The notes beneath the pieces were generated by a model. It saw only the letters and a program-made list of their open reading frames with translations, made no database searches and was not told the origin of the DNA. 21,875 nt of DNA. Origin: a virus. The position numbers and the translations under genes are program-made. The stretch covers positions 1 through 21,875 of the IMG/VR virus record IMGVR_UViG_3300009703_000122; one strand, given 5' to 3'. Every line of letters starts with the position of its first letter. Position 1 is the stretch's first letter. Below are positions 14,080 to 17,240 of this stretch, one piece after another.

Positions 14080-15267
14080 TCAGGACCAAGAGTTGGCAGC
14101 CTTGTCGTAGGTAGAGAGTGTGCCACTTCCAGCACCAGTGTGGTTAGCACCAGCAGTCAAGGAGATAGCACCTGCAGGGTTCAGAGTACCGGCACCCATA
14201 GCAACCTTACCGACGATCAGGTCGCCCTGATACATCACGGAAACGTCACCATTGGTGGTCTGCACTTGAGGACCAACAGCTTCAACAACGCCCACGGAAT
14301 CCTTGTGGTAAATGAGACCACAGGTACCAAGGCCGTTAGCAGAAGCACCGACTCGGTAGTCGTTATTCTCACCAGCAACCCGTGTGTGAGCAAACCTATC
14401 GGGCATCACATTGTTCGACTTCTTGATGGTGATACCAGCAATCTGATAACCCCACTCACCGGAGCGAACGGCAGAGCCTTCCTCGTCACGGTTGATCGGG
14501 CTAATGATGTTATTAGAAACACCAGTAATCAACGAGTAGTACTGCTCAGGAGCAAGTACAGCAACACGTCCATTGGATGGGATGTTGTTCTCATCGAAGA
14601 TCTGTGCAGCACGATAGAACGATGCAACCAGTGCTGTGGGATCAGCAGCTCCGATCGGATTACTACTACCATCGACACCGAAGTACAGAACGTTGCCACC
14701 AGTTTGACCACTCACTGCTGCTCCTTCGCGTGATGCTTGTGCAACAGTTTTGAAGATGTTCTGGTCATAGCGATTGGCGAGAGCGTACGCAAGCTTGCGT
14801 GCGATTTCTCCGCGCAGATCGTAGTGAGCAAATACTTCGTCAAGGTTGTAGACGAAGGTAGAAGCGATTAGGAGGTCATCACAAATGATGGTCTTCTCTG
14901 CCACTGGCAGACCGTTTGATACAGCATTGACCGGGGGATCACCGGTACCAGGAGCATAGCCAGATTCACCAGGCTGGTTACCAGCGCTGTCGGGAGCCTG
15001 ACCAAGGATCGGGGTACCAGGGGTATGGTAATGACTATCAAGTCCACCAGTGAAGATGAACTGCATAGACTTACCGTTCCGCAGGGTACGGCTAGTTACA
15101 GTACCTTTTGCAACTTGTGCATCTTGGTAAGCCTTGAAGAGCTCACCACTAAACAGTTTCAGATAAGTTGCGTACTTTTCTGAAATAGCCTGTACACCAG
15201 GCAGGTAAGTATTAGTAAGAGCTGGAGCGGTTGAAGAACCAATACTCCAGGTATTCATATCAGCCAT
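14080..15267 (-). CDS. Major capsid protein, T7 gp10-like
   Basis: 395 residues, longer than T7 gp10A (about 344). The N-terminal region (YLKLFSGELFKAYQDA, then a TVTSRTLRNGKSMQFIFTG segment, about residues 36-76) is typical of T7-type capsid proteins with the HK97 fold. Further support comes from NRYDQNIFKTVAQASREG and the APEQYYSLI segment. The C-terminal ~60 residues are Gly/Ala/Thr-rich. It is the only large gene preceded by a real intergenic gap (159 bases), which holds a candidate phage promoter and hairpins, and it is followed by a strong terminator; both fit very high late expression. No Shine-Dalgarno is visible before ATG 15267, so the start relies on family fit. A second in-frame ATG is three codons in. 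Confidence 0.93.
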   Translation of the reverse strand: MADMNTWSIGSSTAPALTNTYLPGVQAISEKYATYLKLFSGELFKAYQDAQVAKGTVTSRTLRNGKSMQFIFTGGLDSHYHTPGTPILGQAPDSAGNQPGESGYAPGTGDPPVNAVSNGLPVAEKTIICDDLLIASTFVYNLDEVFAHYDLRGEIARKLAYALANRYDQNIFKTVAQASREGAAVSGQTGGNVLYFGVDGSSNPIGAADPTALVASFYRAAQIFDENNIPSNGRVAVLAPEQYYSLITGVSNNIISPINRDEEGSAVRSGEWGYQIAGITIKKSNNVMPDRFAHTRVAGENNDYRVGASANGLGTCGLIYHKDSVGVVEAVGPQVQTTNGDVSVMYQGDLIVGKVAMGAGTLNPAGAISLTAGANHTGAGSGTLSTYDKAANSWS

Positions 15268-15281
15268 TGTAATAAATTAAA

Positions 15282-15317
15282 AGAGATAGTTTACGAGTAT
15301 CTCTAAAGCGCTTTAGA
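15282..15317 (-). promoter_or_regulatory. Tandem hairpins in the capsid gene 5' leader
   Basis: A perfect 16-bp palindrome TCTAAAGCGCTTTAGA (15302-15317) overlaps a second inverted repeat, AGAGATA/TATCTCT (15298-15304 with 15282-15288). Both lie just downstream of the candidate promoter and about 15 bases before the capsid ATG. They share bases, so they may be alternative RNA folds that affect stability or processing of the capsid message. Confidence 0.55.
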
Positions 15318-15332
15318 TATTTAGTTGTATTG
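15317..15332 (-). promoter_or_regulatory. Candidate T7-class phage RNA polymerase promoter
   Basis: The minus strand reads CAATACAACTAAATAT, matching the T7 late promoter core TAATACGACTCACTAT at 12 of 16 positions without gaps. It sits about 50 bases upstream of the capsid ATG, where T7 has its strongest promoter (phi10). The +1 GGG of T7 is not kept (CTAAAG follows). Promoter recognition differs between T7-like phages, so this is a candidate from resemblance and position only. Confidence 0.4.
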
Positions 15333-15348
15333 TTTGTGGTCTATCCCA

Positions 15349-15360
15349 CCGTCATGACGG
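15349..15360. repeat. Perfect 12-bp palindrome CCGTCATGACGG
   Basis: A perfect inverted repeat upstream of the candidate capsid promoter. It could be a protein-binding site or, in a transcript entering from upstream, part of a processing hairpin. Function unknown. Confidence 0.5.
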
Positions 15361-15392
15361 CGAAGGGTATCCTCGTAAGGGCCAACGCCAAT

Positions 15393-15436
15393 AGGTAAGG
15401 GGGGAATTGAACCCCCCGAAGTAAACCTACTTACCT
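15393..15436 (-). other. tRNA T-arm and acceptor-like hairpin (no complete tRNA)
   Basis: On the minus strand a GGGGG stem closes a seven-base TTCAATT loop, giving GGTTCAATTCC, which fits the tRNA T-arm consensus GGTTCRANYCC. CTTACCT follows directly and pairs over all 7 bases with AGGTAAG at 15430-15436. Only 13 bases lie between the 5' strand and the T-stem, so D and anticodon arms are absent and no CCA follows. The 5' strand overlaps the stop of the 34-residue gene. It may be a tRNA relic, an integration-type site, a tRNA mimic or a processing hairpin. Confidence 0.5.
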
Positions 15437-15531
15437 TGTTTCTTGTAGGTAACGCCGCGATACTTCAGCTTAGAAACCTTCTCGGCTTCTTTCTGCTCAC
15501 GTACGCGAGCTTGCAGTTCAACATTAGGCAT
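15427..15531 (-). CDS. 34-residue peptide with LKYRGVTYKK motif
   Basis: A short gene from ATG 15531 to TAG 15427. A GGAG Shine-Dalgarno lies 7 bases upstream, one of the few good ones in the window. The peptide has a charged, helical first half (ELQARVREQKEAEK) and a basic end with LKYRGVTYKK. The YRGxxY motif recalls short cyanobacterial proteins with a YRGVxY start (DUF4278 type), but the match is too short to assign. Its 3' end overlaps the tRNA-like hairpin. Function unknown. Confidence 0.65.
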   Translation of the reverse strand: MPNVELQARVREQKEAEKVSKLKYRGVTYKKQGK

Positions 15532-15538
15532 GATGAAT

Positions 15539-15542
15539 CTCC
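15539..15542 (-). promoter_or_regulatory. Shine-Dalgarno site GGAG for the 34-residue gene
   Basis: GGAG on the minus strand with 7 bases to ATG 15531. It is the main support that this very short frame is translated. Confidence 0.6.
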
Positions 15543-15544
15543 AT

Positions 15545-15578
15545 TGAAGTACCACACCCCCGTTCCATGGTGTGGGTG
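15545..15578 (-). other. Intergenic hairpin between two small genes
   Basis: CCACACC and GGTGTGG on the minus strand form a 7-bp stem with a 10-base loop between the 60- and 34-residue genes. No T-run follows, so it is not a standard terminator. An RNA processing or stability role is possible. Confidence 0.4.
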
Positions 15579-15761
15579 TTATGCGTCCAACATGAAAGTT
15601 TCTTCCAGTACTACACGTTGCAGACTGTCTCTTAGATATCGATAGTATTCCTGCTCAGCAGCATCTCCACCTGGCCATTGGTCAAGAGCGAAATGAACTG
15701 CCTTGAGCATCATCTTTAAAGAGGTGGCTGTAAATTGTAACTCGTAGATGTTTTCTTCCAT
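15579..15761 (-). CDS. Small hypothetical protein (60 residues)
   Basis: An acidic, helical protein with aromatic residues (MEENIYELQF start, YYRYLRDSLQRVVLEE near the end); no signal peptide or membrane span. It begins 19 bases after the stop of the secreted beta-rich protein and follows it in the psbA cassette. The gap contains a 10-bp palindrome (AACGTACGTT). No Shine-Dalgarno site is visible. I do not recognise the family. Spacing, strand and ordinary amino acid composition support a real gene. Confidence 0.6.
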   Translation of the reverse strand: MEENIYELQFTATSLKMMLKAVHFALDQWPGGDAAEQEYYRYLRDSLQRVVLEETFMLDA

Positions 15762-15780
15762 GAGGATGAACGTACGTTAC

Positions 15781-16152
15781 TTAGAACTTATATTTCAGGC
15801 CAGCTTTTACACCAACTGAGACGTTCTCAAACTCCAATCCTTCTGGTGTCATCGCAGCAACTTCACCATATACTGAGGTCTTTTCAGTAACAGTGACGCT
15901 ACCACCAACCTTTCCAGATACTGCGGTGACCGAATCAGAACCATCAGGGAAGTTAAGTGCTGGGCCACCTTGGATGTACCAAGATGAAGCATTCACTTCC
16001 CCTTCAACACCAAAATGGGTCTCCAGCAAAGTGGAACCGTAGTCATTGCCAGCGAAGCCTGAGTTGGATTCAACGTTGACATAAGCACCTGCGAAAGCAG
16101 GAGTAGAAAAAGAAGCCACCGCAATGGTGGTAAGGAAAAGTTTGTTAGTCAT
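15781..16152 (-). CDS. Secreted outer-membrane-barrel-like protein
   Basis: 123 residues. A clear signal peptide (basic start, hydrophobic core, cleavage likely after Ala21 in TPAFA|GAY) is followed by about 100 residues of alternating polar and nonpolar strands, with Gly at turns (YIQGGPALNF, SGKVGGSVTVTEK, VGVKAGLKYKF). The terminal Phe is typical of outer-membrane barrels that use the Bam machinery. At this size it would make a small or partial barrel. It lies 20 bases after psbA, so is probably co-transcribed. Similar short exported proteins are, to my knowledge, found in marine cyanobacteria and their phages. The role could be outer-membrane remodelling or superinfection exclusion, but this is inference. 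Confidence 0.65.
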   Translation of the reverse strand: MTNKLFLTTIAVASFSTPAFAGAYVNVESNSGFAGNDYGSTLLETHFGVEGEVNASSWYIQGGPALNFPDGSDSVTAVSGKVGGSVTVTEKTSVYGEVAAMTPEGLEFENVSVGVKAGLKYKF

Positions 16153-16172
16153 AATAAATAGATAATGTATAA

Positions 16173-17240
16173 TTAACCAAGCACTGGCGCAGTATGTGTC
16201 GCCAGGTCGAGGGGGAAGTTATGAGCATTACGCTCGTGCATCACTTCAATACCAAGGTCAGCCCTGTTGAGAACATCTCCCCAAGTATTAATGACGCGAG
16301 ATTCAGAATCAATAATTGATTGATTGAAATTAAAACCATTGAGATTAAATGCCATAGTGCTTACCCCCAAAGAAGTAAGCCAAATACCAGCAACTGGCCA
16401 AGCAGCCAAAAAGAAATGAAGACTGCGTGAGTTGTTGAAGCTGGCGTATTGAAAAATGAGTCGGCCAAAATACCCATGCGCTGCAACAATGTTGTAGGTC
16501 TCTTCTTCTTGTCCAAACTTATACCCCTTGTTGTGTGATTCACTTTCTGTGGTCTCACGTACTAGGGATGACGTGACAAGACTGCCATGCATCGCGCTGA
16601 AGAGCGCTCCACCAAACACACCAGCCACACCAAGCATGTGGAAAGGGTGCATAAGAATGTTGTGCTCCGCTTGGAACACAAGCATGAAGTTGAAGGTACC
16701 TGAAATACCAAGTGGCATACCATCAGAGAATGATCCCTGACCGAAGGGGTACACCAAGAATACGGCGGCAGCGGCTGCGACTGGTGCTGAGTATGCGACA
16801 CTAATCCACGGCCTCATTCCCAGTCGATAACTAAGTTCCCATTCGCGTCCCAAGTAAGCGAAGACACCGACAAGGAAGTGGAAGACCACGAGCTGATATG
16901 GACCTCCGTTGTATAGCCATTCACTAAGTGATCCTGCTTCCCATAGTGGGTAGAGGTGGAGTCCGATGGCATTTGAAGAGGGCACGACGGCGCCCGATAT
17001 GATGTTGTTTCCGTAGAGCAGGGATCCTGCAACTGGTTCTCTGATTCCATCAATGTCAACAGGTGGTGCGGCGATGAATGCCAGGATGAAACATGTTGTG
17101 GCAGCCAGCAGACATGGAATCATGATGACTCCAAACCAACCGACATACATACGATTCTGAGTGCTTGTCACCCAGCTACAAAAGGACTCCCATGCCTCCC
17201 CTACGGAATTACGTGGGAGTACTTGGGTCATACTATTCAT
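16173..17240 (-). CDS. psbA: Photosystem II reaction-centre protein D1
   Basis: 355 residues from ATG 17240, or 352 from ATG 17231; the second start gives standard D1 numbering and may be the true one. Hallmarks are present: RMYVGWFGV, the Tyr161-containing [18 protein letters not shown] (with Asp170), [16 protein letters not shown] (Glu189, His190, His198), the [17 protein letters not shown] loop, [15 protein letters not shown] (Ser264, His272) and [15 protein letters not shown] (His332, Glu333, His337, Asp342, Ala344). Position 130 is Glu ([15 protein letters not shown]), as in high-light type D1. After Ala344, the normal processing site, only eight residues remain. All manganese-cluster ligands seen are kept, so it should be functional. 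Cyanophage D1 replaces the fast-turning-over host protein during infection. It overlaps the upstream stop by 8 bases. Confidence 0.98.

Follow-up and report, generated by a model that had tools for sequence, protein, structure and literature searches.

A tRNA-like element before the capsid gene of T7-like cyanophages as a candidate mRNA processing signal

Anatomy and surroundings of the element

Why does a T7-like cyanophage carry, directly before its capsid gene, something that resembles a tRNA without D-arm and anticodon arm? The window, by which we mean the whole stretch of 21,875 bases analysed here, is a virus record whose minus strand carries psbA, capsid, tail tube and internal virion genes. 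The element is located on this strand between a 34-aa ORF (15427–15531), the translation of which shows weak DUF4278 similarity (Pfam PF14105, E=0.0047, below its cut-off), and the gene of the Gp10A-like major capsid protein (14080–15267; Pfam PF21703, E=1.2e-47). An earlier note had described it from the sequence of the window and offered three readings: a remnant of a phage attachment site, a tRNA mimic at which the message is cut before the capsid gene, or just a strong hairpin.

Reading the minus strand bears out the described anatomy. The acceptor 5’ strand AGGTAAG (15430–15436) is followed by a gap of 13 nt (15429–15417), which alone separates it from the T-stem, so that D-arm and anticodon arm are missing. 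The T-arm GGGGG(TTCAATT)CCCCC occupies 15400–15416, with the T-stem at 15416–15412 and 15404–15400 and the T-loop at 15411–15405. The acceptor 3’ strand CTTACCT (15399–15393) and the discriminator A (15392) complete the element at 15392–15399, and UU follows at once (15390–15391). T-stem, acceptor and discriminator thus measure 5, 7 and 1, the exact geometry of a tRNA, and the two stems add up to 12 bp, as in the minihelix substrates of RNase P and tRNase Z. Both enzymes have been reported to accept an acceptor/T-arm minihelix (PMC3714273; PMC11221534), RNase P measuring a fixed distance from the elbow (PMC4919913). A cut by RNase P is predicted just 5’ of 15436 and one by RNase Z between 15392 and 15391; the capsid mRNA would then start at 15391.

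Taken by itself the element is not a conspicuous tRNA. ARAGORN detected no tRNA in the window, and the Rfam tRNA model RF00005 scored the element at 24.1 bits, under its cut-off of 29. The mascRNA-menRNA family (RF01684) was rejected as an identity, the window reaching 18.3 bits where 42.5 are required. Dinucleotide-shuffled windows contain on average 0.1 cases of a T-arm with a complete 7-bp acceptor, which makes the element only moderately unusual for the window alone. In nearest-neighbour folding the minimum-energy structure is a shifted register (AGUAGGU/ACCUAUU) of -19.7 kcal/mol, 2.4 kcal/mol lower than the forced tRNA register (-17.3 kcal/mol), and pairs into the UU; in the minimum-energy fold of element plus downstream core the acceptor is not formed. 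Since the statistics of the window element are moderate and its fold lies in the shifted register, the case rests on comparison with relatives.

The acceptor 5’ strand is formed by the end of the coding sequence of the 34-aa ORF (third base of CAA, then GGT AAG), and the TAG stop opens the 13-nt gap. This overlap counts against processing, because a cut by RNase P at 15436 would take off the end of the ORF. As an observation in its own right, the stop lies right behind the acceptor 5’ strand (15427–15436), so that ribosomes translating as far as this stop would unfold the mimic; comparable overlaps are present in P-SSP7 and S-TIP37, and a coupling of translation and processing through them is possible.

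Further upstream, a Glutamine-II riboswitch aptamer was detected 5’ of a small ORF (15551–15601, minus strand; RF01704, 35.2 bits, cut-off 33). Such aptamers precede small ORFs in the psbA-capsid region of several cyanopodoviruses (window, L003, L004, L007, L008 and L552). Predicted sigma-70 promoters and terminators near the element were not above chance. Closer to the capsid gene, the leader contains a near-perfect palindrome, TATCTAAAGCGCTTTAGAGATA (15298–15319, minus strand), in place of which relatives have different ones. This second palindrome of the leader measures about 12–22 nt and varies in sequence among phages (CTCTAAGCGCTTAGAG, TCCAAACGTTTGG, TTCAGCTGAA); its centre is also palindromic, which a plain hairpin does not need.

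The capsid-leader core and the module in front of it

BLASTN with the leader matched 26 phage records, all of them cyanophages or uncultured marine phages, and in the eight records inspected the match lay just upstream of the capsid gene. The conserved block begins directly 3’ of the discriminator and comprises UU, a stem of 8–9 bp, a UACG hairpin and a GUGG-GANAGA-CCAC hairpin. In the window (minus strand), P1/P2 at 15359–15389 consists of an 8-bp-class stem (GGCGTTGG/CCTTCGCC), a 1x4 internal loop C/ATAC and the P2 hairpin CCT-TACG-AGG. It is followed by the P4 hairpin GTGG-GATAGA-CCAC at 15336–15349, which reads GUCG-GAGAGA-CGAC in other phages with pairing kept; a palindrome, CCGTCATGACGG (CCGTCTAGACGG in others), overlaps both P1 and P4 (15349–15360). 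P1 of the relatives has 8–9 bp and the 1x4 internal loop (C / AYAC or AYAA), the P2 loop is mostly UACG, and internal loop plus tetraloop could be parsed in 48 of 51 core representatives. Both strands of P1 vary at paired positions, and in 1000 shuffles of the strands the pairing never came up to that observed. The conserved block therefore behaves as a structured RNA.

A capsid homolog lies 3’ of the core in 264/264 testable contexts among the matches listed. The core is present as a single copy in each of five complete genomes, and the P4 motif occurs once in the window. The earlier note had placed the element next to a capsid promoter region, a designation that the single copy per genome in these five and the compensatory changes of RNA type do not support. 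Two promoter identities were rejected: a T7-like phage promoter would be expected in several copies per genome, and the Syn5 promoter sequence is absent from the capsid leader. No Rfam family matched the core when the window and the loci of relatives were scanned.

The core could also act on its own, as a self-cleaving ribozyme cutting the junction between module and core in the manner of the HDV-like theta ribozymes, whose cleavage sites lie at the 3’ ends of phage tRNAs (PMC10879173). Besides this precedent, the recurrence of the P4 part in unrelated phages, often in tRNA arrays and with a pseudoknot-like stem, speaks for such an activity. We nevertheless regard it as improbable: at E<=5 no Rfam HDV-type family was found in window 15000–16200, no nested double pseudoknot was apparent by eye, and the core parses as a simple P1/P2 hairpin plus P4. 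Moreover, S-RIP1 and Syn5 have a mimic and P1/P2 without P4, and the early-gene mimics described below have a simple stem-loop alone downstream.

Separate from this question, the 3’ hairpin of the core (UGAC[AG]GU[CG]GGANAGAC[CG]ACA; window 15336–15355) was found letter for letter in unrelated phages and a few bacterial contigs (L319, L327, L331, L333, L335, L352, L355, L358, L414, L430, L431, L559, L563, L569, L574 and L576). It is often situated in tRNA arrays or just 5’ of an ATG, and a covarying stem abuts it on the 5’ side, often together with an H-type pseudoknot. No Rfam family matched at the loci tested, and the recurring hairpin is possibly a new regulatory RNA or ribozyme. In cellular genomes the core motif gave at least 19 scattered matches; one of them (L565) is the capsid leader, on a contig assigned to Porticoccaceae by binning. 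In five B-type loci (see below) with a divergent leader (L214, L265, L266, L278, L291), a module of stem, C, hairpin, AYAC and stem lies about 50 nt further downstream.

A core profile over the fetched loci gave at least 285 distinct contexts with enough upstream sequence; these are partly related, so that counts do not represent independent events and P values are descriptive. In all 285 distinct contexts listed a module stands directly 5’ of the core: a hairpin termed B in 195, an acceptor/T-arm mimic in 79 (74+5), and a tRNA or tRNA-shaped gene in 11. Contexts with neither a B hairpin nor an ARAGORN call were classed as A-type, and the T-loop pattern was part of this search, yet no context was left without a module and no other type of loop remained. 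The B hairpin has a near-invariant 15-nt loop, CACCUCAGAGU(C/A)GGA, on a variable stem with pairing mostly kept, 11–12 nt before the core; the B-type and A-type loci scanned revealed no Rfam family for the B hairpin or for the mimics. Cultured phages are represented by P-SSP7 and Syn5, both with mimics in the capsid slot, and by Cyanophage NATL1A-7, where an annotated tRNA-Gly (Rfam 70.5 bits) with discriminator U, followed by UUGG, abuts the core and then the capsid gene. ARAGORN called Gly(UCC) in three of the 11 slots and Trp(CCA) in one (L078, Rfam tRNA score 60.5 bits); the remaining seven calls have implausible anticodons and look like decayed anticodon arms.

Within the A-type contexts listed, the distance from T-loop to core is tRNA-like and nearly fixed, with 13 nt in 57/79, 14 nt in 21/79 and 15 nt in 1/79. 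The T-loop follows the consensus U54 (U/G)55 C56 R57 A58 closed by G53-C61: G53, U54, R57, A58 and C61 are kept, C56 is changed in one case, and many mimics have G instead of U at position 55. Acceptor stems differ widely among mimics with pairing kept (combined Fisher p about 7e-12 from upstream shuffles, related sequences not being fully independent). Pairing is weak in several relatives, and a control of own versus swapped acceptors was uninformative as relatives share similar flanks. Conservation of the paired bases in related phages had been proposed earlier as a check; the T-arm/acceptor geometry is kept in the 79 distinct contexts listed.

The bases behind the discriminator also follow a pattern. 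RNase Z of B. subtilis processes CCA-less precursors, and a U no more than 2 nt from the discriminator stimulates it about 200-fold (PMC10100781). Among the contexts listed, 79/79 of A-type and 11/11 with a tRNA have such a U, the trinucleotide being TTG (57), TTT (18), ATT (3) or CTT (1) after the 79 mimics and TTG after all 11 tRNAs, and CCA follows the discriminator in none of the 79 mimic and 11 tRNA contexts. The elements thus agree with the B. subtilis-type pattern of no CCA at 74–76 and a U near the discriminator, a rule taken from B. subtilis and not from picocyanobacteria.

These constraints bear on a reading in which the module is left uncut and serves as a structural barrier to exonucleases, so that the upstream mRNA would be protected at its 3’ end or the capsid message on its 5’ side. 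Any stable hairpin, be it A, B or tRNA, would do for this purpose, which fits the interchange of modules, and modules often lie directly 3’ of a stop codon. A barrier explains neither the fixed 13/14-nt distance and kept T-loop identity nor the UU after the discriminator, nor the presence of real tRNAs, which need excision to work, and we consider it unlikely. Conserved geometry, T-loop identity and functional replacement likewise rule out the third of the original readings, that of just a strong hairpin.

Closely related phages differ in the module itself. Loci L429 (B) and L393 (tRNA-like) are 97% identical upstream and 96% downstream, L021 (mimic) and L025 (B) 97% upstream and 95% downstream, and L068 (B) and L078 (tRNA-Trp) 98.8% downstream, with a different module in each pair. 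The 3’ junction of the swaps is the start of the core (UUGR); in L021/L025, where P2 differs too, it is near the core start. Judged from these alignments, mimic, tRNA and B hairpin are exchangeable in evolution though they have no common sequence, and this lack of common sequence argues for independent recognition of the modules and not for docking on the core. A graded series from tRNA-Gly over tRNA-Gly(UCC)-like elements without D-arm (L096, L539, L478, L543) to the minihelix suggests that some mimics descend from captured tRNAs.

Variable upstream cassettes with an exact 3’ junction could also indicate an attachment or cassette-insertion site, at which a phage integrase uses tRNA 3’ ends and cassettes enter at the border of the core; P-SSP7, S-TIP37, Syn5 and S-SRP01 do encode an integrase. 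We searched the 22-mer GGGGTTCAATTCCCCCCTTACC of the element in a collection covering 84,980 species genomes and found no exact match, so that, of the host tRNA matches which the earlier note had suggested looking for, an exact one over this length did not materialize. One module is always at the capsid gene, the compensatory changes include G-U pairs, and the swaps are explained by ordinary recombination, which leaves this reading hardly credible. The more specific idea of an attP remnant finds no support, given the missing exact 22-mer match, an acceptor sequence free to vary and the fixed position before the capsid gene.

Mimics between early genes

A strict scan for mimics in 11 complete cyanopodovirus genomes gave 19 matches, compared to 0–0.1 per shuffled genome. 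Six are located at the capsid gene, 12 in early gaps on the coding strand and one inside a gene (S-TIP37, position 32626); the latter is probably a chance match. The noncoding DNA of S-TIP37 amounts to about 9%. The same scan found no mimic in T7 and a single match in HTVC019P, which looks like a genuine tRNA. When the IMG loci were scanned for more mimics, the matches were for the most part true tRNA arrays belonging to unrelated phages, and a search with one early-gene mimic matched at least five contigs.

Each of the 12 early mimics is followed by a stem-loop (Fisher p about 2e-19, related sites included). The order is mimic, discriminator, usually UU, stem-loop, short leader and ATG. In the Prochlorococcus phages 9515-10a and P-SSP10 and at position 1027 of P-SSP7 the stem has 7 bp and the loop 5 nt, with the ATG about 32 nt downstream; position 630 of P-SSP7 has a stem with a longer loop, outside the limits of the scan. 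Three mimics occupy three consecutive gaps in 9515-10a, and its close relative P-SSP10 has two. For several early mimics the minimum-energy fold consists of acceptor, small middle arm and T-arm, and then the stem-loop.

The positions in the early gaps match those of the RNase III sites of T7, and RNase III is present in cyanobacteria (PMC10989914). A site of the T7 kind, in which back-to-back hairpins are cut as double-stranded RNA, would need neither a T-loop identity nor a discriminator geometry and does not account for real tRNAs in the slot; with a helix of only about 12 bp, we think such a site very improbable.

Proposed message processing and known systems

We propose that the element is a minimal tRNA mimic, an acceptor stacked on a T-arm, serving as an mRNA processing signal, and assign this reading a probability of about 70%, the cuts and the enzymes being deduced from structure and context. 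Structure, geometry, position, recurrence and exchange with real tRNAs are established by comparison of the sequences. Of the three original readings, that of a tRNA mimic at which the message may be cut before the capsid gene is supported by comparison, through real tRNAs in the slot, exact geometry, UU, swaps and early copies.

According to this proposal the phage genome would be transcribed into long messages, and host enzymes of tRNA end processing, recognizing only the acceptor/T-arm stack, would cut at the mimic. Cyanobacteria possess both RNase P and RNase Z (PMC10989914). A cut by RNase Z right after the discriminator, between 15392 and 15391, appears most likely, and RNase P would probably also cut 5’ of the acceptor. 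Through the 3’ cut the capsid mRNA would acquire a defined start, UU and then at once the stable P1/P2 stem of the core, and would be uncoupled from upstream genes such as psbA. A 5’-proximal stem may shield the capsid mRNA from decay that depends on the 5’ end; such protection would be relevant, since host RNase E is induced by P-SSP7 (PMC9692554). In front of early genes the same composite stands where T7 has its RNase III sites.

A wider version of the proposal, to which we would give somewhat less than an even chance, is that interchangeable punctuation modules replace the T7 RNase III sites throughout the genome. Host enzymes would then cut early and late messages alike and leave decay-resistant 5’ ends of UU plus stem during RNase E induction, with the B hairpin mimicking the tRNA modules. 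That the same machinery recognizes the B hairpin, the most frequent module and one without tRNA sequence, is presumed here and not proven.

If true, processing at tRNA mimics would explain how very abundant ocean viruses separate and stabilize their messages, photosynthesis genes versus capsid, without T7 RNase III sites. The element would also be a minimal, naturally occurring substrate for tRNA-processing enzymes and would show how a captured tRNA can evolve into a processing signal; for the model phage P-SSP7 the RNA ends are predicted exactly. In the literature searched, neither the tRNA mimics nor the B hairpin nor the capsid-leader core is described.

Several known systems share parts of this arrangement. 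The precursor of the C4 antisense RNA of phages P1 and P7 is a substrate of RNase P and hence a non-tRNA phage RNA cut by this enzyme, as is predicted here; C4, in contrast, is a regulatory RNA and not a recurrent signal at gene borders, and has no T-arm minihelix with UU trailer. The mascRNA/menRNA is a tRNA-like element with short arms that is reported to be cut by RNase P and RNase Z, but is situated at the 3’ end of a eukaryotic lncRNA. Theta ribozymes are likewise structured phage RNAs at a tRNA 3’ end and are implicated in 3’-end formation (PMC10879173), whereas the core described here has no HDV family match, also stands 3’ of mimics and B hairpins, and belongs to the capsid leader. T7 itself, a member of the related phage group, has its early mRNA cut five times by RNase III (PMC4858673), and cutting in intergenic gaps of early and late messages would be common to both; the cyanophage elements, however, are tRNA-like and not long RNase III hairpins, and T7 had no such element in our scan. 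A likeness in layout is also seen in the tRNA punctuation of mitochondrial polycistronic transcripts by RNase P and RNase Z, where intergenic tRNA structures mark the cuts and the mRNA that follows owes its 5’ end to the 3’ cut. Compared to mitochondria, the phage elements with their predicted cuts are mostly non-decoding mimics, are followed immediately by a stem-loop, and can be substituted by the unrelated B hairpin.
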